This document shows positions 18,101-32,948 of a stretch of 64,000 bases of DNA, one piece after another; within the stretch, counting starts at the first letter, position 1, and every line of letters begins with the position of its first letter. This DNA comes from Rhodoflexus caldus. Lineage in GTDB: Bacteria > Bacteroidota > Bacteroidia > Cytophagales > Thermoflexibacteraceae. Location of the stretch: the NCBI RefSeq assembly GCF_021206925.1, contig NZ_JAJPRF010000019.1:1-64000 (forward strand), given 5' to 3'. A program made the translations under genes and the position numbers. Under the pieces are notes generated by a model that searched no databases, was not told the DNA's origin, and saw nothing but the letters and a program-made list of their open reading frames with translations.

Positions 18101-19836
18101 AATTTCATAAATAGTCCTGACCAGTATACATTAAAACCGTTTTTTAAACATATAGGTGCTGTAAATCTACTATCAAAATCAGATATAATTTTATAATTAC
18201 TAAATTGTTTTACAAAATTTTCATAATTAAAAAACCAAGCAGGATAAGATGCTTCATATACGGGTTCGTGAACTTCCTGTATAGTTAATATATCATACGA
18301 GTTTTTTACAAATGCAGTTCGATCAATAATGATATAGCAGAAATTAAACTTTAAAAATTCTTCTATCCACTCATAGGGTTTGTCCAAATACTGCACCACC
18401 CCTGATAGCAGTAAAACATTGGGTTGGCGTTCTTTGAGGCAGTCTTCTATGGTATAATAAAATTTGAGGTGCCCGTCTGCTATGTCCTGCTGACCACACG
18501 CCACGAAATGCGGCTGTTCTACAACGCTCCACTCTAACGCAAGGTCTTTCAGGAAATCTCTGCTTCCAAAACAAGTACTGCCGAGCGAACCGCCAAAGTC
18601 CAGCACGCTCAACTTATTGCCGTATTCCACGCCGATTTTAAAAAGACAGGCCAGCAGTGGCCAATTATATTGAATCTTATCAAAGATAACCGAATCGCGC
18701 TCATAAACGGCCTCTCCGTTTTTTACTTTGAGTACGCTTTCCCGTATTTTTTGCAGAATAATGTCTGCTTCGTAGCCCGTGCACAATTCTTTAGCTTCCT
18801 CCCACGAAGCATAATTCCCTGACCAACTGATGATGGGCTTGGGCGGGGGGGGATTAGAGATTGTTTTTTCGGTATTGAATAAACTCTTAACTTTATTAAT
18901 TCCACGCTGTGCCAATTCTTTAAAATTAAGCAAGTTCCAAGGCAAGTAAGCTTTTTTACCGCTGATTTGTAAGTATCTGTCGATAACAGCACGGAACACA
19001 TATTTATTTAAATATGGTTTGTGCTTTTTTACAGGAATAGTACATGTAGGGAATTTGATATACATACTATAATCTACATCTTTACTATTTGTAGCATCTT
19101 GACCTAAACCTATATGATTAGAAAGTGCGTATTTAGGATAAATCGTTAATTTTTGATGTAAATAAGCCACTGCTTGCCAGCGGATTGCCCAAGAGCTTAT
19201 TTTACCTTCGGCCTGCATTTTCAGCATATTTAAAAAATCGTATGCGCCGTATAAGTTGAAAAACTCTGTCAAGTTTACGTCATGCAACCGTTGATACAAC
19301 TTATTGCTGTCTGATTCAAACAGTGCCCAGCGGTCTTGCCAAGTAGCCCAGCCCAAACAATCAGGTATGGGCAGAAAAAAAGTATCGGGAGTTTTATCAT
19401 CCGAAACATAGAAGTTACACGCACCGACGGAAATCACTTTAGGTTCGTTGACATATACATCCAGAGCCTCGTTCATAAATTGTAAAAAGTAGGGAGAAAG
19501 TTCTAAGTCATCTTCCAATACAATAACTTTACCATGCCGGTTGATTACTTCCGTAACACCCGTAATAATGGATTTTGCTAAACCTAAATTTATTTCTCTT
19601 TCTATTAAAATAACCTCCTTACACCACTGCTTACTACGTATGATATTGCGAACTTCTTTTATTTTTTGTTTGTCTTGCTCGCTTGCATCAGGTTTAAAAC
19701 CATCTGCATAAACATACAATATAGAATCCTTAGCTTGCTCGTTTCTCGCAAGTGATTCCAATGTTTGTTTTACATACAACGGACGATTGTAAGCAAATAG
19801 AACGATTGGAGCTAAGACATTACTGGGCGTCGACAT
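18088..19836 (-). CDS. fused glycosyltransferase (GT-A) - TIGR04325-type methyltransferase
   Basis: This 582-residue protein has two modules. Residues 1-about 260 form a GT-A glycosyltransferase starting LAPIVLFAYNRP with VLEDD (107-110), clearly paralogous to the N-terminus of the 9272-11008 protein. A proline linker (329-334, PPPPKP) follows. Residues about 337-582 match the putative methyltransferase family TIGR04325 (start WSGNYASWEEA, then VLDFGGSLGSTCF as the SAM-binding loop, and LLLSGVVQYL). The linker is encoded by an uninterrupted run of eight C (eight G on the given strand, 18845-18852). DNA to the 5' side of the linker is AT-rich; most of the methyltransferase module is near 50% GC, and the last 80 or so codons are AT-rich again. 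This is a recent-looking fusion in a glycan locus. Confidence 0.85.
   Translation of the reverse strand: MSTPSNVLAPIVLFAYNRPLYVKQTLESLARNEQAKDSILYVYADGFKPDASEQDKQKIKEVRNIIRSKQWCKEVILIEREINLGLAKSIITGVTEVINRHGKVIVLEDDLELSPYFLQFMNEALDVYVNEPKVISVGACNFYVSDDKTPDTFFLPIPDCLGWATWQDRWALFESDSNKLYQRLHDVNLTEFFNLYGAYDFLNMLKMQAEGKISSWAIRWQAVAYLHQKLTIYPKYALSNHIGLGQDATNSKDVDYSMYIKFPTCTIPVKKHKPYLNKYVFRAVIDRYLQISGKKAYLPWNLLNFKELAQRGINKVKSLFNTEKTISNPPPPKPIISWSGNYASWEEAKELCTGYEADIILQKIRESVLKVKNGEAVYERDSVIFDKIQYNWPLLACLFKIGVEYGNKLSVLDFGGSLGSTCFGSRDFLKDLALEWSVVEQPHFVACGQQDIADGHLKFYYTIEDCLKERQPNVLLLSGVVQYLDKPYEWIEEFLKFNFCYIIIDRTAFVKNSYDILTIQEVHEPVYEASYPAWFFNYENFVKQFSNYKIISDFDSRFTAPICLKNGFNVYWSGLFMKLCKN
18845..18852. 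repeat. homopolymeric G8/C8 tract inside the fused gene
   Basis: Eight consecutive G on the given strand, interrupted from a further GGG only by one C. They encode the proline linker between the glycosyltransferase and methyltransferase modules of the 18088-19836 gene. Tracts of this length are prone to slipped-strand errors. Confidence 0.9.
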
Positions 19837-20593
19837 TTTTGAAAAATAGGGTTTTAAATGTTTTTCCTATGAATTTATAGCTCACGGAATTTAAGAATAT
19901 GCCAATATCTGAATTAATATGAGATACTATATCGAGAGTACTATCAGATTCAACAAGTATGATATCAGGCCTGTATTGCTCCCAGTTGTTTGATTGAAGA
20001 ACTTGTAAGTCTAAACCTTCTACATCTATACTAAAAAAGTCAATATGTTGATTTTTAGGCAGATACTTATCAAGAATACTATCTAATCTTTCTACCTTTA
20101 ACTCTATAATATCGGTAATGTAATATCGATTATAGATGCCATCATTTTTTTTTGCCACTTCTTCCGAGAATGTATTCAGCCCTGGTTCATTAAATATAAA
20201 ATATTTTAATACCTTATTGTTTTCCACGCTTATGCCTACCTCTAAATTAATATCTTCAGGACGTTGTTCATTAAAAAGACGCATACTGCCCGGCATTGCG
20301 TCTATATTTATACCGCGCCAACCTCTTCTGTAAAAAGCATAAGTATTAGAAAATCTTTTGGGATGATGTGCACCAATATCTACATAGAAACCTTCTCTTT
20401 TATCGGCAAATATCCTATTAAGAAATAAATCCTCTCCTTCTTGTGAATATGACATATTGACATATTCATATTGTTCTTTCAAAGTTTTAATCTCTTGTAT
20501 TAAAGGAAGCATGAAAGGATATGCATAAAATTCTCTAACTACTCTAGGAGTGAGAGATGTGATAATTTGTTTAATAATTTTTTTTGCTGCCAT
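19820..20593 (-). CDS. FkbM family methyltransferase
   Basis: This 257-residue FkbM methyltransferase has the variant common in surface-polysaccharide loci. YSQEGEDLFLNRIF is followed by GFYVDIGAHHPKRFSNTYAF (motif I, about 70-89) and GWRGINIDAMPGSM, then IDFFSIDVEGLDLQVLQSNNW, the catalytic-region signature. The start overlaps nothing upstream (3 bp from the ABC ATPase stop), and its end overlaps the fused gene by 17 bp. The AT-rich composition is like that of its downstream neighbour and unlike the N-terminal half of the ABC gene upstream. Confidence 0.9.
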   Translation of the reverse strand: MAAKKIIKQIITSLTPRVVREFYAYPFMLPLIQEIKTLKEQYEYVNMSYSQEGEDLFLNRIFADKREGFYVDIGAHHPKRFSNTYAFYRRGWRGINIDAMPGSMRLFNEQRPEDINLEVGISVENNKVLKYFIFNEPGLNTFSEEVAKKNDGIYNRYYITDIIELKVERLDSILDKYLPKNQHIDFFSIDVEGLDLQVLQSNNWEQYRPDIILVESDSTLDIVSHINSDIGIFLNSVSYKFIGKTFKTLFFKNVDAQ

Positions 20594-20596
20594 AAG

Positions 20597-21889
20597 TTAT
20601 TGCCAGTTATGATCTACGAGTACACTCTGGTGGGATAAAGGTGTAAGTCTACCTGTTTTAAAAAAATCACCTTCTTGTACTTCCAATAGGAATGCATCTA
20701 TTATCCAGTCTACAATTTCTCCATTTTGTTCTCTAATGAAGATGTTAACAGAATATGTGCCTGGACTTAATGGAAATTTAGGCACAATACATTCAAATTT
20801 TCCATCGCTACTAACATGATATGTCTTATTTAGTAACTCACTCCAAAGAATAATTTTATTTTCCCCAAGAATTGAATTGAATGATAATGCTACAGATACA
20901 TTACTAACCACAGTAGAAGATTCGTAATAAATTACTATTTTAACATACTCTCCTGAGGAAATTACTTTTACATCTTTGTTTTCAGCATTTAAGAATTGAA
21001 CACCAATTGCATTTAATTTTTGATTTCCTACTCGATCATTACGTTGACTGATTTGAGTTATATTTTGTGATATGGTTGTAGTGTATTGATTTATTGCTGT
21101 CTTTATATCTAACTTATCAGATTCCATTCTGCCATTTTTTAAAATTAAAGCTGTTTCACATAGATTCTGCAAAACAGCCATATTATGACTCACAAACAAC
21201 ACCGCCCGCCCTTGGCCTGAGCTGACGTCTTTCATTTTGCCGATGCACTTTTTTTGAAATTCGGCATCGCCTACGGCCAGCACTTCATCGACTATCAAAA
21301 TGTCTGCCAACAGGTGCGCCGCCACGGCAAAAGCCAGCCGCACGTACATGCCACTGCTGTAGCGCTTCACAGGCGTATCTAAATAGGCTTCTACGCCTGC
21401 AAAGTCAATGATTTCGTCTAAGCGGGCGCGTATTTCGTGGCGGTTCATGCCCAAAATATGCCCGTTGAGGAAAATGTTTTCCCTGCCCGTCAGTTCGGGG
21501 TGGAAGCCCGTGCCTACTTCCAACAGGCTGGCTATGCGTCCTTTTATCTTCACCTGCCCGCGCGTAGGGGCGGTGGTTTTGCTCAGGATTTTGAGCAAAG
21601 TGCTTTTGCCTGCGCCGTTTTTGCCGATTACGCCGAGTATTTCACCTTGTTTTACCTCAAAGTTGATGTCTTGCAGTGCCCAAACGTAACGCGCTTTCAA
21701 CGCTTTCATTTCGTCTACGCTTTTGATGGTGCTCAGTTCGTTGGCGGTGATGTACTGCTCGAAAGGGTCGGGTTTGCCCTGTATTTTAGCCCACAGGCGT
21801 TGTAGGTCTTCCCCAAAGGAGGCAGCGCCTACCGTGCCAAGGCGGTAGCGTTTGTAGAGGTTTTCAACCTTTAAAACGGTGTCTGACAT
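20597..21889 (-). CDS. ABC transporter ATP-binding protein, Wzt-like, with C-terminal glycan-recognition domain
   Basis: This 430-residue ATPase is of the O-antigen/teichoic acid export type. The nucleotide-binding domain (about 1-245) has Walker A GKNGAGKS (89-96), signature YSSGMYVRLAFAVA, Walker B DILIVDEVLAVGD and the switch VSHNM. The C-terminal about 160 residues form a beta-sandwich domain like Wzt-C, which in ABC-dependent O-antigen systems binds the modified end of the polymer. I start at MSDTVLKVENLYKRY (21889); an in-frame extension of 38 codons is not plausible as protein. GC falls from about 45-53% in the NBD to about 27-32% in the C-terminal part, with the break near 21150 at the domain boundary. 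No Wzm-type permease gene is in the window. Confidence 0.92.
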   Translation of the reverse strand: MSDTVLKVENLYKRYRLGTVGAASFGEDLQRLWAKIQGKPDPFEQYITANELSTIKSVDEMKALKARYVWALQDINFEVKQGEILGVIGKNGAGKSTLLKILSKTTAPTRGQVKIKGRIASLLEVGTGFHPELTGRENIFLNGHILGMNRHEIRARLDEIIDFAGVEAYLDTPVKRYSSGMYVRLAFAVAAHLLADILIVDEVLAVGDAEFQKKCIGKMKDVSSGQGRAVLFVSHNMAVLQNLCETALILKNGRMESDKLDIKTAINQYTTTISQNITQISQRNDRVGNQKLNAIGVQFLNAENKDVKVISSGEYVKIVIYYESSTVVSNVSVALSFNSILGENKIILWSELLNKTYHVSSDGKFECIVPKFPLSPGTYSVNIFIREQNGEIVDWIIDAFLLEVQEGDFFKTGRLTPLSHQSVLVDHNWQ

Positions 21890-22003
21890 GGGGCAAAGAT
21901 AGGGGAATTGGTCGGGTTTGGCAAAAAGTGAGGCGCAGGCTTTGGGAAAATAGCACACACCTGTTGTTGAAACAGTATATTGCCGAACAAAAGCCATGGC
22001 CAC

Positions 22004-22750
22004 CTACCGCGCCAGTTTGGTAATCGTTTCTTTGAGCGAGTGCCAGCGGGCTTGCTGTCCGCTCAGCAGGGGGTACCAAAGGCCGTCGCCCGGGCTGATT
22101 TGGTCGCCCGACTTCGGCTGCGGTGCTGCCTTTTCAACGTCGGTTTCTATCATAAAACTTTGTTCCATAATGGCAAGGGCGGCCTGCCAAGAAATAGCGT
22201 GGGTCGCTCCTGCGTGCATCAGCATGGCGGTGCGGTCGGCAAACTGCCAGCGGATGTCGTATCGCTGTTGCTTGCCGTTTTCTTGCCAATTATAGCCCAC
22301 TACGAGCGGCGCTTCTACTTTGGCGGTTTCCATCAGCCCCTGTACTACTTGCTGCAACAGCAGCTCCCATGCCATGCGGTTTTTTGGGGAAAATGTTTGG
22401 GTTTCGCCCGAGAGAGTTACCGTGTGCAACTCCAAAAAATTATGTGCGGGCTTCCGCGGGCGCGTTTCGGGTTGGGTTTGCGCCATGAGTTTTTCCAACT
22501 GTGCAATCCATGCCTCATGCAGAGGGGCTTCGCACGAGCGGTTATCGTTCGGGGAAAAGCCTTCCTCGGCAAGTTCCTCTTCGGTGAACTCTTCGCGGTG
22601 CGTATAGGTCAGTTCGTAGGTAGCGCGGTACTCGGCCGCTTCTTTCCTGATAATCAGGTGATAGTAATGGCTGAAAGGCGGCGGGGTGAGGTCGTTGGTC
22701 TCAAATCGGGCTTCCCACAAAGTAAATCGGCTGAAATCGGTAGCTTGCAC
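22004..22750 (-). CDS. hypothetical protein
   Basis: I do not recognise this 248-residue protein. It is soluble, with no signal peptide or membrane segment, and is rich in Glu, Thr and Trp. The N-terminal half (about 1-130) and the second half (about 130-215, with VVGYNWQENGKQQRYDIRW) look like alpha/beta folds, and the C-terminus is basic. The start is GTG at 22750: no ATG lies between it and the in-frame stop at 22787-22789. A similarly long frame on the opposite strand was judged a shadow because of its Cys-, Arg- and Gly-rich composition. The gene lies 114 bp upstream of the ABC ATPase on the same strand and may be the first gene of the glycan operon or an unrelated neighbour. Confidence 0.65.
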   Translation of the reverse strand: MQATDFSRFTLWEARFETNDLTPPPFSHYYHLIIRKEAAEYRATYELTYTHREEFTEEELAEEGFSPNDNRSCEAPLHEAWIAQLEKLMAQTQPETRPRKPAHNFLELHTVTLSGETQTFSPKNRMAWELLLQQVVQGLMETAKVEAPLVVGYNWQENGKQQRYDIRWQFADRTAMLMHAGATHAISWQAALAIMEQSFMIETDVEKAAPQPKSGDQISPGDGLWYPLLSGQQARWHSLKETITKLAR

Positions 22751-24335: not shown

Positions 24336-26459
24336 TTACAACAAACCGGAGCGTTTCAACAAGGCTTTCGGTGAGGGTTCTGCACCGCGGAATCGCTTGT
24401 AGAGGGTCATGGGGTGTTCGCTGCCGCCTTTGGAAAGTATGTTGGCGCGGAATGATTCGGCCACTTCTTTGTTGAAAATGCCTTTTTGCTTGAAGAAATC
24501 AAACGCATCGGCATCGAGTACTGCTGCCCATTTGTAGCTGTAATAGCCTGCCGAGTAGCCGCCCGCAAAAATGTGGCTGAAAGAAGTACTTGCATTGACA
24601 CCCTCCACATCGGGGAACAGGTTGGTTTTTGCGATGGCGTTTTTCTCAAATGTGTTCACGTCTGCAACATCCTGTGCTTGGCCGTGATAAGCCATATCCA
24701 GCATACCAAAGCTCAGTTGGCGCAAAGTAGCATAACCTTCCATGAAATTGGCGCTTTCCACAATTTTTTGGATGTATTCCTGCGGAATAGGCTCATTGGT
24801 TTGGTAGTGGCGGGCAAACATATCCAGCGCTTCTTTTTCGTAGCACCAGTTTTCCATGATTTGCGAAGGCAACTCTACAAAGTCCCAGTAAACGCTTGTA
24901 CCGGAGGTGCCGCTGTATTTACATTGGGAAAGCATACCGTGCAGTGCGTGCCCAAACTCGTGGAACAGCGTGGTTACTTCATCGAAGGTGAGCAGCGAAG
25001 GCTGTGTTTCGGTAGGTTTGGTAAAGTTGCAGACAATTGACACATGCGGGCGGATGTCTTTGCCGTTTTTGACATGTTGGTCTAAGTAGCTTGTCATCCA
25101 TGCGCCGCCGCGTTTGCCTTCGCGCGGGAAGAAGTCGGCGTAATATACGGCCACAAATTTGCCTTTGTCATCAAAAACCTCATAGGCTTTTACTTCGGGG
25201 TGATAAACGGGAATCTGTTTGTTCTCTTTGAATGTGAGGCCAAACAGTTTGTTGGCAATGGTAAAAGTACCTTCAACTACGTTTTCAAGTTTGAAATACG
25301 GTTTGAGGGCTTCGTTGTCGATGCCGTATTTTTCTTTTTTGAGTTTTTCGGCATAAAAAGCGTAGTCCCAGCGTTGCAGACGGTCTTCGGTGAAGCCGTT
25401 TTTCTTGGCGTAGGCGAGCAGTTCGCTCATTTGCTTGTCGGCAACGGGCTTGGCATAGCTGAAAATTTCTTCCAAAAAGGCATTGACTTTTTCGGGTGTT
25501 CCTGCCATGCGCTCTTCAAGCACAAAATGTGCGTGCGAAGCATAGCCCAACAGTTTGGCGCGTTCGTGGCGCAGTTTTACGATTTCTTTGATGATGGCCT
25601 GATTGTCGTTGGCATTGCCCTTAAATGCTTTGGATGAAAACGCGATGAACATTTTTTTGCGCAGGTCGCGGTTTTCGCTATAAGTCATAAAAGGTGCATA
25701 GCTGGGCTGTTGCAAAGTGAATACCCAGCCTTCCATGTTTTTCTGTTTGGCTGCCAGTCGGGCGGCATCTTTTACAAAGTCGGGTAGCCCTGCCAAATCC
25801 TTTTCATCGGTCAGGTGCAGGATGAACTCGTTGGTTTCTTTGAGCACGTTTTCGCCAAAGGTCAGCGAAAGTTCGGAAAGGCGTTTGCTGATTTCGCGCA
25901 GTTTGGCTTTGTCGGCCTCGTTCAGGTTGGCACCGTTGCGGGCAAACTGTTGGTAGGTTTTTTCCAGCAAAGTCATGCTTTCAGTGTCCAATTTCAGTGT
26001 TTTGCGCTGTTCGTACAGTTTTTTAATGCGCGCGAACAGTTTGGCGTTCAGCAGGATATCGTTGCTGTATTCGGACAGCAGGGGAGAAGCCTCTTTAACA
26101 ACTTTTTGAAGTTCGGGGCTGGTTTCCGCACTGTTCAGGTTGAACATAGTGCTTTGCACCTTGCTCAGCATTTCTCCGGCTTGGTCAAGCGCTACAATGG
26201 TGTTTTCAAAAGTGGGCGCTTTGCTGTTGTTGGCAATAGCGTCAATTTCTTTTCTGCCACGTGCCAGAGCTTCCTGCAATGCGGGCATCAGGTGCTCGGT
26301 TTTGATTTTATCGAAGGGCAGCGTTTCGTGCGGGGTGTTGAACGGAGAGAAAAAAGGATTCTCGTTTGTCATGGGTTTGGGTGCTTGTTGTTGAGCGGTT
26401 AAAAGTGAAAGCCCTGCCGCTGCAAGTAACAGCCGAACAGGTTTAAAGCGTGTTTTCAT
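24336..26459 (-). CDS. M3 family metallopeptidase (peptidyl-dipeptidase Dcp / oligopeptidase A type)
   Basis: This 707-residue zinc peptidase is of the thimet-oligopeptidase family. The zinc motif HEFGHALHG is near residue 500, followed about 25 residues later by the WDFVELPSQIMENW segment with the third ligand Glu. The C-terminal KWAAVLDADAFDFF and GGSEHPMTLYKRFRG are characteristic. I start at the ATG at 26459, which gives MKTRFKPVRLLLAAAGLSLL, a signal peptide suggesting periplasmic location as for Dcp homologues. It would trim short peptides. A candidate -7 box lies at 26500-26507. Confidence 0.94.
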   Translation of the reverse strand: MKTRFKPVRLLLAAAGLSLLTAQQQAPKPMTNENPFFSPFNTPHETLPFDKIKTEHLMPALQEALARGRKEIDAIANNSKAPTFENTIVALDQAGEMLSKVQSTMFNLNSAETSPELQKVVKEASPLLSEYSNDILLNAKLFARIKKLYEQRKTLKLDTESMTLLEKTYQQFARNGANLNEADKAKLREISKRLSELSLTFGENVLKETNEFILHLTDEKDLAGLPDFVKDAARLAAKQKNMEGWVFTLQQPSYAPFMTYSENRDLRKKMFIAFSSKAFKGNANDNQAIIKEIVKLRHERAKLLGYASHAHFVLEERMAGTPEKVNAFLEEIFSYAKPVADKQMSELLAYAKKNGFTEDRLQRWDYAFYAEKLKKEKYGIDNEALKPYFKLENVVEGTFTIANKLFGLTFKENKQIPVYHPEVKAYEVFDDKGKFVAVYYADFFPREGKRGGAWMTSYLDQHVKNGKDIRPHVSIVCNFTKPTETQPSLLTFDEVTTLFHEFGHALHGMLSQCKYSGTSGTSVYWDFVELPSQIMENWCYEKEALDMFARHYQTNEPIPQEYIQKIVESANFMEGYATLRQLSFGMLDMAYHGQAQDVADVNTFEKNAIAKTNLFPDVEGVNASTSFSHIFAGGYSAGYYSYKWAAVLDADAFDFFKQKGIFNKEVAESFRANILSKGGSEHPMTLYKRFRGAEPSPKALLKRSGLL

Positions 26460-26499
26460 ACAAATTTGGGATAGTGAACAGAACAAATAGTAGTAACGG

Positions 26500-26607: not shown

Positions 26608-29600
26608 CTATTGACTGACGATGATGCGTGCTCCCGCATTGACGCGGTCGCTTGGCAGGTTATTCCATTTCTTAATCTGTTCCACTTTTACTTTGTATTT
26701 CTTTGCGATGCTGAAAAGGGTTTCGCCTTTATTGACCACGTGGTAAATAACGGAGCCTTTGCCCGTGGCTTGCGTAGTAACTTGTTGGTTGGTTGAAGGG
26801 CGCGCTGTTTCGGCAATCACACCTTTGGCAGCGGTTTTGGATTGTGCAGCCTGTGCTTTCATGGCGGCTACTTGTGCGGCGGCGGCTTCGTTGATGGCTA
26901 TCGGCGTGCCTACGGGCAGCGTAAATACGCCGGCAGGAATGTTATTCCACTTTTTAAATTCGCTGAGCCGTACGCCAAAGCGATTGGCCAAGTCGTAAAT
27001 ATTGTCTCCCGGGATGCTGGTATAGATTCTGGCTTCTTCCATGCGCGCTGCGGGGTTGGCAGACGATGCCGACATATTTGCGTTGCCGCCCCTCATAACC
27101 ATACCTGTCGTCGGTTCGGAGATGTTAGAGAGCATTATGCCGCCTTCCGTGCCAACGGCAACACTGCTTCCCGGCGCTTGCACAAAAATAATCTGCCCGA
27201 ATTGGAGCTTAGTGCTCATATCCATATTGTTCCATCGCATCAAATCTTTTACAGGTATTTTGAATTTGTCGGCGATGCTGAAAAGGGTTTCGCCTGCTTC
27301 TACCTTATAGGTGGCAGCGGTTGCGGTAGTGTTCTGTACGGTTGTGTTGCCTGTTGGGGTAACTCCTGTACCTGTAAGGGCAGGCTGGGTCATCGCATTG
27401 CCTACATTTGCCGAAGGATTGGTGTAGGGCTGCGGCGTTACGTTAAAAGTGTTGGTGTTTACTATTGCAGGGTCGGCTACATATACTCTTGTTACACCTG
27501 ACGGGAATGCCGTATTTCCCGGAGTCAAGTTATTCCAACGGTAAAAATCGTCTATGTTGAGGTTATACATACGCACAATATCTTCTACCGACTGTCCGTA
27601 AGTAAGCTCATGTATGCCTTTATTAGTGCCGACAGTTGCGGTTGATGTACTTCCCTGAGGCATTACATTAACTATGGATGTGCCCGTATTAGGTGTAGCA
27701 GCATTGGCTGTTATCGGTACTCCGCTCACAATCAGTTCCTGATTGATAGCAATGGCGTCGGTTTGCAAGTTGTTCCATGCGCGAAGATTGGCTACGGTAG
27801 TGTTGTATTTGCTGGCTATTTTGGTGAGGTTTTCTCCCCTTTGCACGCGATGTTTAACGGGTTGTGTTTCAGCACTTACCACCCCGAGTTGCTGTGCGCT
27901 GCCTGCAACAATGGCCGTAGGGTCGTATAGTTTCAGAACGTCCCCGGGCTTGATAATTGCGGTACTGGACAGGTTGTTCCATGCTCTTAGGCTGCTGGTT
28001 GTGATATTGTATTTTTGGGCAATGGAATACAGGTTGTCGCCCTGTTCTACCTTATGTGTGGGTTGTGCCTGTGTTGCTGTGCCTGTGGCAGTCAATACGT
28101 CAATGTCGTTGGTTGGAGGAGCTAAAAGGGTGCTGTCTATGGATGTATTACCACCGGCAATAGTAGCACTTGTGGTATCTGCCACTATGGCAGGCAACGA
28201 TTCGCCGCGGATTTTGAGTTCCATGCCCGGTGTAAGCGTAAAGCCCGTAATGCCGTTCCATCGGCGTAAATCGGTAATGGTTACGCCATATTTGGAAGCA
28301 ATTTCATAAATGGATTCTCCTGTTTGCACAATGTGAATGCCGGTATTTCTTGCACCTGCATTGGGGTCTGTTATGGTATTATCTATCTGCAGTTCCGGGG
28401 CATCTTGTATGCTTGTCGGATTGATGGCCGGCAACTCGCGGTATTCAGGTGCAGTGTTTTTCGGTCTGCGCTGTTGCAATACCAAAATGCGCCCGGGTTG
28501 CAAAGCTTCATTTTTTTCAATGCGGTTCAGCTTCAACAGGCTGCTGAGCGTCATGCCATAGTTTTGTGCAATTGACCAGAACGACTCATTGGGCAAGGCC
28601 ACATGGTCTTTTACAGGCCCTTTGCTGGCTTTGGCTTTCAAATACAGTACTTGCCCTGCACCTAAAACAGCGTCCTTGTCGTTAAAATCGTTCAGCTTAA
28701 TGAGTTTGCTTTTGCTGATGCCGGCGGCGGCGGCCAACTCGTCAATGCTTTGCCCGTCGGCAGCTATCATCCCCGAAATGCCGTTAATGGTGGCAAAAGT
28801 AAAGTCCTTGTTGCCGATGCGGCGGTCAATGCGGTTGGTAATAATCGGGTAGGGGCTGCCATTGGCCGTTGCTTCGGCATTGGAGAACCGCGCAGCAGTG
28901 GCTGCAAAACCTTGGTTAGGATTGCTGATTTGCAGTGCTGTGCTCACTGCGGCCACTCTTTCGGCAGGCACGGGCAAATAAACAGGCAGATTGCGAGGTA
29001 TATTGCCCGAGATGAGCCATGAGTTGTAATAGCGGACTTGCTCCACGGGCAAATTGGCGGCTCTTGCGATGGCATCCAGTGTTTTTCCTCCCGTTTGGTT
29101 GTAAACCAATAACTTAATCGGGCTGCCGGCTACATTCTGTTGATTGCGGAATACGGAGGTGTACGCCAGCAAATCAATGATATAGTCGGGTGTTTTGTCG
29201 TTTATGGGCAATTGTGTTGTGCCGATGCGGGCGCGCTCCACGCCGTTGCTTTCGTTAAAGGCATTGGAAAGCCCCACGTTGTAGGCTGTGAAAGCGTAAA
29301 TCCAATTGCGCATGGAGTAATTGTTTTTATGCATGGCGCGTGCAAAAGCGCGGGTGGCAGAAATAATGCTTTTGCGCTCGTCAATGGCATTGTCCACCTG
29401 TAAACCGTTTTCTTTGGCAATATCGGCAGACATCAGCCAGAATCCGGTAGCGCCGGGCTGACGGGGGGAGGTGGCATCGGCTGAAAGACCGCTCAGCAGA
29501 AACGCGATGTATTGCAGGTCATCGGGGCAGCCTTCTTCGCGGAGCGTTTGTGTGATGAGCGGCGAATAAATCTGGGAACGCTCGGAAAGGTCGGAGTACA

Positions 29601-29784
29601 GCGTCCAGTTGCCTGCAATCTGATTCACTCTTTGTTGAATCCGCTCGCGGGTGCGTGGTTCTATGGTCAGGTCTATATCGGCAAAACGCATTTGCGAAGG
29701 AACAGTAAGCCCTTCCTGCGCCATTGACCGAAAAGAACATAGAAACACGATGCAGAAGAGAAAAAATAACTTGTTCGTATTCAT
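26608..29784 (-). CDS. LysM-repeat protein with a degenerate SLT (MltD-like) transglycosylase domain
   Basis: This 1058-residue exported protein (signal peptide 1-22, ending SMAQ) has an MltD-like SLT domain at about 55-200, then a long array of LysM peptidoglycan-binding repeats. At least eight LysMs are clear, for example HKVEQGDNLYSIAQKYN and YHVVNKGETLFSIAKKYKVK, most ending in a WNNL-like turn, and one or two further N-terminal ones are degenerate. Ser/Thr/Pro/Asn-rich linkers separate them. In active MltD enzymes the catalytic Glu sits in an ESxFxP motif; here the matching stretch is FLLSGLSADATS, with no Glu, and the usual GLWQF reads GFWLM. It is therefore probably a peptidoglycan-binding scaffold rather than a lytic enzyme. 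A terminator follows at 26552-26580. Confidence 0.88.
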   Translation of the reverse strand: MNTNKLFFLFCIVFLCSFRSMAQEGLTVPSQMRFADIDLTIEPRTRERIQQRVNQIAGNWTLYSDLSERSQIYSPLITQTLREEGCPDDLQYIAFLLSGLSADATSPRQPGATGFWLMSADIAKENGLQVDNAIDERKSIISATRAFARAMHKNNYSMRNWIYAFTAYNVGLSNAFNESNGVERARIGTTQLPINDKTPDYIIDLLAYTSVFRNQQNVAGSPIKLLVYNQTGGKTLDAIARAANLPVEQVRYYNSWLISGNIPRNLPVYLPVPAERVAAVSTALQISNPNQGFAATAARFSNAEATANGSPYPIITNRIDRRIGNKDFTFATINGISGMIAADGQSIDELAAAAGISKSKLIKLNDFNDKDAVLGAGQVLYLKAKASKGPVKDHVALPNESFWSIAQNYGMTLSSLLKLNRIEKNEALQPGRILVLQQRRPKNTAPEYRELPAINPTSIQDAPELQIDNTITDPNAGARNTGIHIVQTGESIYEIASKYGVTITDLRRWNGITGFTLTPGMELKIRGESLPAIVADTTSATIAGGNTSIDSTLLAPPTNDIDVLTATGTATQAQPTHKVEQGDNLYSIAQKYNITTSSLRAWNNLSSTAIIKPGDVLKLYDPTAIVAGSAQQLGVVSAETQPVKHRVQRGENLTKIASKYNTTVANLRAWNNLQTDAIAINQELIVSGVPITANAATPNTGTSIVNVMPQGSTSTATVGTNKGIHELTYGQSVEDIVRMYNLNIDDFYRWNNLTPGNTAFPSGVTRVYVADPAIVNTNTFNVTPQPYTNPSANVGNAMTQPALTGTGVTPTGNTTVQNTTATAATYKVEAGETLFSIADKFKIPVKDLMRWNNMDMSTKLQFGQIIFVQAPGSSVAVGTEGGIMLSNISEPTTGMVMRGGNANMSASSANPAARMEEARIYTSIPGDNIYDLANRFGVRLSEFKKWNNIPAGVFTLPVGTPIAINEAAAAQVAAMKAQAAQSKTAAKGVIAETARPSTNQQVTTQATGKGSVIYHVVNKGETLFSIAKKYKVKVEQIKKWNNLPSDRVNAGARIIVSQ

Positions 29785-30454: not shown

Positions 30455-30558
30455 CGTCGGACGACTTAAAGTTTAGATTTTAGTTGTCAAATGTAAAGTA
30501 AAGATATACAAGAGTTTACCATTTATACAAGTTTTTGTCATCATTTGTTTGTGCGCCC

Positions 30559-32028
30559 ATGCAAGTAAGTTTTACCCGCCTGATACCTGCTCAATCGGCT
30601 CATTTGCTGTTGCCTTTTACCGCGGCCGAATGGGAGGCTTCCGCCGATGCCGTTGCTACCCGTTTTGGCCTGCATGTAAACCTGCTCCAACAAGAGTTTA
30701 AAGGCCGCAAAGACGAAATCGTTAATCTTTTATTGCCTGATAATCAGCCGATAAGTCGCTTGTTGCTGGTAGGTTTGGGCGAGCAGTCCCATGCGGAGGT
30801 ATTCCGAAAGGCTATGCGTTTGCTGGTGCATCAGCAAAGTGAAAAACTGCAACCACGCTTGGTAATAGACTTCACACAGTCTGCCACTTGCTTGGCAGCT
30901 ATTGAGTCGTTTGCAGAGGCTGTTTCTGCCATGTTGCTGGGGACTTATCAGATAGGCAAGTACAAGGCTACGCCACCTGCCGCGAAATTATTGCCCGAGC
31001 TGACAATTGTCGTTCCCGAAAATTTGCAGGCACAGGCGCAGCGGGCTTTTGAGGCGGGCAGGCACATTGCCGAAGTACAACTTGCGGTGATGGACTGGGT
31101 CAATACGCCCGGCAATCGGATGAATGCGCTTACACTGGCAGAAACGGCACTTGCAAGCGGCAATAAATACGGTTATGCGGTGCGTGTGCTGCACAAGGCA
31201 GACATAGAGCGCGAAGGTTTAGGCGCGTTGCTTGCCGTTAATCAGGGCAGCGAACTGCCGCCCACATTCACTATCATGGAATACCAACCTGCGGGTAAAC
31301 AAACAGTTAAAACAGTCGGATTAGTAGGCAAAGGCATCACTTTTGACACGGGCGGCATTACGCTCAAAGAAGGAACCAACATGGGCTGGATGAAAAGTGA
31401 TATGGCGGGTGCAGCTGCCGTTATCGGCGCAATGGAGGCTGCGGCAAGGCTGCAACTGCCTGTGCGCCTTATTGGCATTGTGCCCGCAACCGACAATAAA
31501 CCCGACGGCAAAGCCATCCAGCCCGGCGATATTGTGCAAGCCTACAACGGCATGAGCATAGAAGTGGACGATACGGATGCCGAAGGGCGCATGATTTTGG
31601 CAGACGGCGTATCGTACCTTGCCAAAAACTACCAGCCCGATGTAATGATTGATATTGCCACGCTTACAGGTGCGTGTATTTTCGCATTAGGCTATCATGC
31701 CGCAGGCTTATTTACCAACAATGATGAATTAGCGGCGGCACTGATAAAAGCAGGGCAACAGTCGGGTGAGCGGGTGTGGCGTTTGCCACTCTGGGACGAC
31801 TACGACAGCCAGATTCGTTCCGATATGGCAGATGTTAAGAACTTCGGAGGCAGGCCGGCAGGTGCCATTACGGCTGCCAAACTCATTGAAAAATTTACAG
31901 ACCGCCATCCTGCATGGGCACACATAGATATTGCAGGAACAGCCTTCGGCGATTCGCCTTTTGCCGGCAGCCGAAGCGCTACGGCCTTTGGTGTGCGATT
32001 AATTACCGAATTTTTGAAAGCGTTATGA
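30559..32028 (+). CDS. pepA: leucyl aminopeptidase (M17 family)
   Basis: This 489-residue cytosolic di-zinc aminopeptidase removes N-terminal residues from peptides. The C-terminal catalytic domain has VGKGITFDTGGITLKEG, MKSDMAGAAAV, and the family signature DDTDAEGRMILADGVSYL (NTDAEGRL in most homologues), then ATLTGAC. I start at the ATG at 30559; a TTG eight codons earlier is in frame. It is divergent from the O-methyltransferase, with about 100 bp between. Its stop overlaps the start of the next gene by 4 bases (ATGA), so the two are translated together. Confidence 0.94.
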   Translation: MQVSFTRLIPAQSAHLLLPFTAAEWEASADAVATRFGLHVNLLQQEFKGRKDEIVNLLLPDNQPISRLLLVGLGEQSHAEVFRKAMRLLVHQQSEKLQPRLVIDFTQSATCLAAIESFAEAVSAMLLGTYQIGKYKATPPAAKLLPELTIVVPENLQAQAQRAFEAGRHIAEVQLAVMDWVNTPGNRMNALTLAETALASGNKYGYAVRVLHKADIEREGLGALLAVNQGSELPPTFTIMEYQPAGKQTVKTVGLVGKGITFDTGGITLKEGTNMGWMKSDMAGAAAVIGAMEAAARLQLPVRLIGIVPATDNKPDGKAIQPGDIVQAYNGMSIEVDDTDAEGRMILADGVSYLAKNYQPDVMIDIATLTGACIFALGYHAAGLFTNNDELAAALIKAGQQSGERVWRLPLWDDYDSQIRSDMADVKNFGGRPAGAITAAKLIEKFTDRHPAWAHIDIAGTAFGDSPFAGSRSATAFGVRLITEFLKAL

Positions 32029-32948
32029 AATACGTTCTCGTAAAATCCTTCTTCGTATGGATGATATGCGGGCTGTTGGCTGCACCGCAACTTTGGGCAC
32101 AAGATGCCACCGATACCGATACCCTGTATCAGTCATTCGGCAAAATTTATCGCCTGCAATTGATAAATGCGCCTTTCCCTTCGCCGGAACGCGCCAATGG
32201 GCATACCTACAACGGGAAAACTTACAGCGCTGCCGAGCATTACAACGACAGCACGGTATTGGTATTCATTCCCAAAAAATTCAACCCAAGCCGAGAGGTA
32301 GATGTGGTAGTATATTTCCACGGCTGGTACAACAACCCCGACAGTGCCCTTGTGCAGTTTAACCTCATCAATCAGTTTGTGCAGGCAAATAAAAATGCGA
32401 TATTGATTGTTCCGCAAGGGCCTAAAAATGCCCCCGATTCGTTTGGCGGCAAGTTGGAAAAAGCGGGCATGTTCGCCGCATTCATCAACGAAACCTTCCT
32501 GAAACTGGCTGCCGAAAAAGTATTTCGCAGCAATCCGCGCTTAGGTACGATTGTAATTGCCGGCCACAGCGGCGCGTACCGTGTGATGGCACATATCCTC
32601 ATGCATGGCGGCATGGAAATTAAAGAAGTCTATTTGTTTGACGGGCTGTATTCGCAATTTGAGAAGTTTATTTTGTGGATAGACCGCAATAAAACAGGGC
32701 GTTTTGTTGCCGTTACCTCTCCTGCCGAAGGCGGCACCGAAAAACAAAGCATGGACATGATGGCAGTGATGAAAGCATGGAAAATTCCCTTTGCTTCATT
32801 TAAGGAGTTGGATGCTTCGCTGGTAGAAATGGAAAAAAACCGTGTGGTTTTTATTCAGAGCATATTGGGGCATAACGAAGTACTTTCCACAGGCAACAAT
32901 CTGTACAAATGCCTCGTAACGAGTGGTAATTTGAAAGATATCAACTAA
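32025..32948 (+). CDS. secreted alpha/beta-hydrolase-like protein
   Basis: This 307-residue protein has an N-terminal signal sequence (MKYVLVKSFFVWMICGLLAAPQLWAQ). The core looks like an alpha/beta hydrolase: VVVYFHGWYNN (oxyanion-loop His-Gly), ILIVPQGPK, then the nucleophile elbow IVIAGHSGAYR (GHSGA), and later LFDGLYSQ. A late HNE (GHNEVLS) could supply the catalytic His. The substrate is unknown. It is coupled to pepA by the 4-base ATGA overlap, suggesting a joint role in peptide or ester scavenging, but the two act in different compartments. Confidence 0.8.
   Translation: MKYVLVKSFFVWMICGLLAAPQLWAQDATDTDTLYQSFGKIYRLQLINAPFPSPERANGHTYNGKTYSAAEHYNDSTVLVFIPKKFNPSREVDVVVYFHGWYNNPDSALVQFNLINQFVQANKNAILIVPQGPKNAPDSFGGKLEKAGMFAAFINETFLKLAAEKVFRSNPRLGTIVIAGHSGAYRVMAHILMHGGMEIKEVYLFDGLYSQFEKFILWIDRNKTGRFVAVTSPAEGGTEKQSMDMMAVMKAWKIPFASFKELDASLVEMEKNRVVFIQSILGHNEVLSTGNNLYKCLVTSGNLKDIN

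Follow-up and report, generated by a model that had tools for sequence, protein, structure and literature searches.

A LysM-array protein of Rhodoflexus caldus with a probably inactive MltD-like SLT domain, and recurrent loss of the catalytic glutamate in its order

The window analyzed here is a 64,000-nucleotide stretch of the Rhodoflexus caldus genome (contig NZ_JAJPRF010000019.1, positions 1 to 64,000). It contains a confirmed open reading frame (ORF) of 1058 residues with an ATG start at 26608..29784 on the minus strand. The encoded protein combines a long LysM array with an N-terminal SLT domain that keeps the predicted fold of the lytic transglycosylase (LT) MltD and very probably has no catalytic activity, as both the catalytic Glu and the Gln of the conserved Trp-Gln motif are gone. 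Computed directly were the loss of these two residues and its recurrence, the predicted fold, homology, purifying selection, and, in a second family (f14), the fusion of a dead (Glu-less) to a live SLT domain. On balance, we favor the view that the product is a secreted pseudo-lytic-transglycosylase that may bind the wall and serve active lytic enzymes as a scaffold or cofactor.

The alteration of the catalytic site is clear in two alignments, one with MltD and one of 28 family sequences. In both, the column of the catalytic Glu falls on L97, and the Ser that follows it is kept as S98. The first-pass annotation of this DNA had read the Glu-Ser pair as replaced by Ser-Gly; it was right that the Glu is gone and wrong in the register. 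Its reading of the Trp-Gln motif as Trp-Leu holds, the motif being W116-L117 with the Gln lost. By comparison, E97, S106, Q117, and Y201 are all present in 91 of 91 orthologs outside f14 and the window's own family, f1. These orthologs represent 20 families and 71 genera and were counted without a Glu filter from the 112 ortholog rows of a first survey, whose rows were chosen non-randomly among the matches listed, mostly one per genus. An earlier set of 90 Glu-bearing orthologs had been selected on Glu and omitted one row of family f2. Within that set, 19 columns are conserved at ≥97%; the window protein keeps 14 of them and has lost E97, V113, Q117, A147, and G174.

Other lytic transglycosylases show the same pattern of conservation. 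Glu is present in 25/25 of those compared, and a site-by-site comparison of 23 other LTs found S106 in 23/23, Q117 in 22/23, and Tyr (15) or Phe (8) at column 201. Column 106 corresponds by our own counting to Ser73 of MltE, and it is aligned with less certainty in the copies that diverge most. Tyr201, which aligns with the Tyr of the MltD YV motif, persists in the window protein and in the relative closest to it and is gone in the other two genomes of the genus. No substitute Glu at the catalytic position was found by sequence comparison among the 12 Glu-less rows of the first tree. The earlier description of the domain as apparently dead is well supported. We take Glu125 of E. coli MltD to occupy the column of Leu97 in the window protein. 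According to one report (PMC10931528), the E. coli MltD variants E125A and E125K, designed as inactive, gave no suppression, and removal of the LysM domains severely reduced function in the suppression test. A bond between Glu and Tyr is described as critical in lytic transglycosylases in another source (PMC12547810).

The retained layout of the SLT domain, also proposed by the first-pass annotation, is supported by a confident fold prediction. An AlphaFold2 model of residues 1-301 (pLDDT 89.4, pTM 0.85) has its best PDB matches in the MltD entries 8rhe, 8rhf, and 8rhi (VIA Z 20.1-20.3, root mean square deviation (rmsd) 3.3-3.6 Å, 227-234 residues). For 8rhe, the values are Z 20.3 and rmsd 3.5 Å over 231 residues; the next-ranked match after the MltD entries is MltF, at Z 14. 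A phmmer search against PDB likewise returned P. aeruginosa MltD (8rhe; E 7e-14), with the best stretch at residues 45-291. The best NCBIfam match is the MltD model NF008050 (PRK10783), at 212.6 bits, and a Glu-bearing LT from the same genome reaches 213.2 bits on this model; both lie below the equivalog cut-off of 508. The protein thus resembles MltD (P. aeruginosa 8rhe; E. coli) in having an N-terminal SLT domain followed by LysM, alignable motifs, and the best structural match. It differs in lacking the catalytic Glu and Gln, in its sub-cut-off equivalog score, in carrying about nine LysM domains versus two in E. coli MltD, and in the absence, by eye, of a lipobox Cys at the likely signal-peptide cleavage site.

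Loss of the Glu is not confined to one genome. The query matches in 13/13 genomes of family f1, and Glu is absent in eight of them. The position holds L, L, R, and L in the four sampled genomes of the window's genus (g1; G000-G003), S, S, and L in the three genomes of g6, and Q in one g4 genome, with E in the other. Glu is kept in genera g7, g5 (two copies), g3, and g2. The complete set of E97, S106, Q117, and Y201 is found in 0/14 f1 copies. A sequencing error or one-off in a single genome is very unlikely, because the Glu is missing from every one of the four g1 genomes sampled.

Phylogenetic analysis supports repeated change at this position. A quick first tree of 137 rows, left after removal of duplicate same-genome loci (125 with Glu, 12 without), gave five Glu-state changes, only two of them forced by starred branches. 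A more careful tree of 74 rows, from which seven active-site columns were removed, gave four changes, all four forced by starred branches (four to six across bootstraps), and recovered f1 as one clade (95/97). Such trees count changes without direction, and several f14 rows are long branches of unsure placement. Nevertheless, Glu is almost certainly the ancestral state, because all 25 other enzymes carry it. A single loss at the base of f1 was rejected: it would require Glu to have been regained, the Gln copy of G010 being sister to the Glu copy of G006 (100/98). Because of this sister pair, a model of losses only would place at least two losses within f1.

Family f14 presents dead and live SLT domains within one protein. 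A search of 26 genomes with a family alignment identified a fusion gene whose product has, in order, an N-terminal dead SLT-like domain, two LysM domains, and a C-terminal live SLT domain. The fusion is a single ORF in 11/13 genomes; G161 has an interrupted copy, and in G185 the gene is divided between two contig ends. Glu is present at the N-terminal site in 0/13 (N, D, G, H, or a gap instead) and at the C-terminal site in 13/13, where the N-terminal reading for G185 comes from the other contig end and that for G120 from a match of only 24 bits. In the nine of the 13 fusions that were compared half by half, every live half carries E, S, S, Q, G, G, and Y at positions 97, 98, 106, 117, 171, 174, and 201 (9/9), and no dead half has the full set (0/9). 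Where the loop is deleted, the residue at the Glu position depends on the alignment, as for L198 and L207, which show a gap in one case and D or G in the other. The fold of the dead half is a prediction based on hidden Markov model (HMM) scores and predicted secondary structure; in PDB alignments of the fusion model, the two top rows, like most others, fall on the live half.

A separate f14 gene encodes one SLT-like domain with LysM; in six genomes, the Glu is absent from it (K, K, K, R, K, and a gap), with Lys at this position in the copies of G056 and G107. It is linked to an O-methyltransferase gene in g43, g71, g35, and g20, and a family-alignment search found none at threshold in G069 and G082. 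The G143 copy (L073, L208) keeps the Glu and is without the Ser after it and the Gly in front of the Trp, both lost; it is a possible decay intermediate. Four loci, L231-L234 (G177, G094, G185, and G132), yielded only very divergent candidates (62-77 bits, open frames of 490-557 residues), and L231 has, by eye, a Gln near the Glu position. The Pfam SLT model did not report the dead half in the one fusion and the one separate f14 copy scanned. Proteins that score as LysM only can conceal dead SLT domains, and a control module of this kind would be partly hidden from annotation.

The dead domains are under purifying selection, with ratios of nonsynonymous to synonymous rates (dN/dS, NG86) of 0.055-0.117 in few pairs. 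For the window gene, the G000-G003 comparison gave 0.107 for the dead SLT domain, 0.140 for the nine LysM domains pooled, and 0.241 for the linkers pooled. The live LTs of the same two genomes gave 0.066, 0.079, and 0.022. In f14, the dead and live halves of the fusion show 0.055 and 0.062 in g43 and 0.117 and 0.076 in g60, and the dead domain of the separate g43 gene shows 0.086.

The idea that the protein is a scaffold or regulator, already raised in the first-pass annotation, fits these results, because the dead domain is under purifying selection and f14 joins a dead SLT domain, LysM, and a live SLT domain. In the mechanism that we propose, the ancestor would have been a LysM-SLT gene that is common in the order, often beside an O-methyltransferase gene, and typically encodes what resembles an active MltD-type enzyme. 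In the window lineage, the SLT domain would have lost its acid/base Glu and the Gln of the Trp-Gln motif and kept its fold. The LysM array would anchor the protein on glycan strands, and the dead SLT domain would most likely bind glycan or a partner without cutting, and in this way position, recruit, or restrain real lytic transglycosylases. Three further MltD-like SLT proteins with Glu are present in the window genome, together with a fourth, weaker Pfam SLT match. Whether the protein works as a partner of live lytic enzymes is, in our estimation, evenly balanced.

Functional parallels exist for a different fold. EnvC and NlpD are degenerate LytM factors. Such factors, including DipM and ActS, resemble the proposed system in their way of working only, a dead wall-hydrolase domain controlling active enzymes. 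They differ in having a LytM/M23 domain where the window protein has an SLT-like one. The dead LytM domain of DipM is reported to bind autolysins and stimulate the lytic transglycosylase SdpA (PMC10336132). We infer a wall-held, non-cutting module because inactive MltD mutants fail and the dead DipM domain stimulates an LT; that the domain is inactive, that it binds glycan, and that it partners live enzymes are deductions of the same kind. No described case of a dead SLT or MltD regulator was found in a full-text literature collection with few subscription papers, which is weak evidence of absence. Dead-hydrolase regulators are already known for LytM/M23, and an SLT-fold counterpart would be new, if true. 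In that case, the control or aiming of lytic transglycosylases in these Bacteroidota becomes testable: the f14 fusion points to a live MltD-type SLT as the likely partner, and the repeated losses offer natural replicates. We tentatively extend this reading to two families of the order, which could use a pseudo-lytic-transglycosylase as a control module, f14 in cis with a live SLT domain and f1 in trans with an expanded LysM array. The dead MltD-type SLT domain with LysM might then have arisen more than once from an active, O-methyltransferase-linked ancestor.

Several observations weigh against a conserved control function. Glu is retained in 5/13 f1 genomes. The site is not wholly dismantled in the window protein, where S106 and Y201 are retained, and Tyr201 is neither strict nor essential everywhere, as the Phe found in 8/23 other live LTs indicates. 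The f14 fusion model (pTM 0.67) shows no reliable contact between the halves; a contact between dead and live halves is unsupported, the model being too uncertain. The dN/dS values come from a single unsaturated pair in the case of the window gene, the only usable one, and from three gene pairs of two genera in f14. Between G000 and G001, the dead domain is 59% identical versus 72-88% for the live LTs. Moreover, constraint on the dead domain of the window's genus is partly relaxed, because it evolves faster than the live LTs in the same genomes (0.107 versus 0.022-0.079).

This faster evolution also favors a reading in which the LysM array is the functional part, as a glycan clamp or wall stabilizer, and the SLT domain is a slowly drifting relic without a role of its own. 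Within f1, the Glu position varies (L, L, R, L, S, S, L, and Q) in a manner that resembles drift at this site, and other active-site positions have decayed further in sister lineages. However, the dN/dS of the whole dead domain lies well under the neutral level and does not exceed the value for the nine pooled LysM domains, and the g43 dead half of f14 has a dN/dS of 0.055. In addition, P29, P87, G114, W116, D135, R137, W161, G171, N254, W256, and P263 do not vary across the four g1 genomes. We consider a relic rather unlikely. The dead groove could instead bind strands or strand ends as a glycan cap or decoy, competitively shielding the wall from real transglycosylases. The kept fold, the retained S106 and Y201, and the long LysM array agree with such a role, and loss of the Glu need not abolish binding, since the MltE-E64Q mutant was solved with chitopentaose bound (PDB 4hjy). 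Yet sister lineages lose the groove residues S106 and Y201 and keep fold residues, suggesting that conservation does not act on the groove as such, and this decoy role appears distinctly improbable.

Continued glycosidase activity through another acid would also be compatible with the retained S106 and Y201. Asp103, six residues past L97, is retained throughout the four g1 genomes, but Asp is the common residue there in Glu-bearing copies too. Some f14 dead halves have an Asp at or beside the Glu position, but these halves also miss most of the following loop. Of the acidic positions, D89, D135, and E136 alone are shared by the full set of 12 Glu-less rows, and they are equally common in Glu-bearing copies. 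The invariance of Glu in the 91 outside orthologs and 25 other LTs speaks against this alternative, as do the failing E. coli MltD variants E125A and E125K (PMC10931528); Lys is also what G056 and G107 carry here in their f14 copies. An alternative acid is therefore highly improbable, and the pseudo-lytic-transglycosylase acting beside live enzymes remains our preferred reading.

The gene family is widespread in the order. An orthologous LysM-SLT gene occurs in 260/291 sampled genomes at E <= 1e-22, and in a phylum sample, 49/198 genomes match at E <= 1e-40, with at most 175 bits outside the order and 277-362 bits for the best copy per genome within it. A contig scan with the single protein as query returned two relatives only, one labeled uncultured Cytophagales and one Bernardetiaceae. 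Glu-bearing orthologs of the order are homologous genes with the same domains, often directly downstream of an O-methyltransferase gene. They differ from the window protein in keeping E97, S106, Q117, and Y201 and mostly in having fewer LysM domains (3-5 in most, range 1-17). The first-pass annotation called a non-catalytic MltD relative of 1058 residues unusual; this needs qualifying, as the Glu has been lost repeatedly in the order and the family has long LysM arrays both with and without Glu. Length was likewise rejected as a marker of deadness, because Glu-bearing copies with long arrays reach 1313 (G009), 1553 (G006), and 1635 residues (G013), and the dead copies of g43 have only 656-657. 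The longest array seen, at L151:405-5309 (G013, family f2), has about 17 LysM domains and keeps the Glu.

The layout of the window protein, all on the minus strand, begins with an N-terminal signal peptide read by eye (residues ~1-22, 29719..29784), where the model shows a helix at 3-21. The pseudo-SLT domain, of MltD-like lysozyme fold by Pfam, phmmer, the AlphaFold2 model, and structure matching, spans residues ~33-218 (29131..29688). It includes the Leu97 codon at the catalytic Glu position (29494..29496) and the Leu117 codon at the Gln position of the Trp-Gln motif (29434..29436). It passes the Pfam SLT model PF01464 narrowly (23.5 bits versus a cut-off of 21.3, residues 90-175), and the protein is unlisted when PF01464 is run genome-wide at E <= 0.001. 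A beta-alpha-alpha-beta unit follows in the model (residues ~223-273, 28966..29118) and may be LysM-like, judging from predicted secondary structure. The first-pass annotation had counted at least eight LysM domains, in agreement with the eight stretches scored by Pfam (305.8 bits, above cut-off). An HMM seeded from the protein's own LysM domains finds nine: residues 341-375 (28660..28764; weak, 12 bits), 394-434 (28483..28605), 483-523 (28216..28338), 576-617 (27934..28059; also by Pfam), 645-685 (27730..27852), 724-761 (27502..27615), 825-866 (27187..27312), 920-956 (26917..27027), and 1014-1055 (26620..26745). No M23/LytM domain is among the 21 Pfam families listed for the protein at E up to 1.

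An O-methyltransferase gene (PF01596; 29807..30454, minus strand) lies 22 bases upstream on the same strand, and other families of the order show this gene pair as well. Such a gene is directly upstream, on the same strand, of nine Glu-less copies (G000-G003, G056, G107, G120, G041, and G025) and directly upstream of 16 Glu-bearing ones (G009, G034, G030, G085, G072, G045, G097, G059, G021, G017, G235, G133, G076, G057, G042, and G039). That both kinds of copy occupy this position supports an origin of the dead gene from an ordinary LysM-SLT gene. For the other eight f1 genomes, none was found in the fetched stretch of seven, and the flank in G008 was too short; some other copies elsewhere lack the upstream gene. 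Downstream, a peptidase family M3 gene (24336..26486, minus strand) lies 121 bases off on the same strand; it is also adjacent in G002 and G003 and was not found near the gene in G001. M17 aminopeptidase and TonB neighbors occur near some close relatives only. A role in gliding or type IX secretion was set aside, as the literature consulted gave nothing linking the gene to it; an unnamed LysM protein is reported to be altered in lol mutants (PMC11885536).

Other ORFs of the window deserve brief mention. The plus-strand ORF at 31914-32948, with an esterase match below cut-off, shares 115 bases with the end of the 30535-32028 ORF, which by eye resembles an M17 aminopeptidase; translation of the plus-strand ORF probably begins further downstream. 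On the minus strand, a 248-residue ORF at 22004-22750 has no Pfam match at E 0.01 and a homolog in the same G003 neighborhood; it sits between an ABC exporter-like ORF, named by eye, and a TPR ORF. Adjacent ORFs at 19820-22003 (minus strand), also named by eye, resemble an FkbM-type methyltransferase and a polysaccharide ABC exporter, which suggests that a surface polysaccharide cluster lies near the gene.

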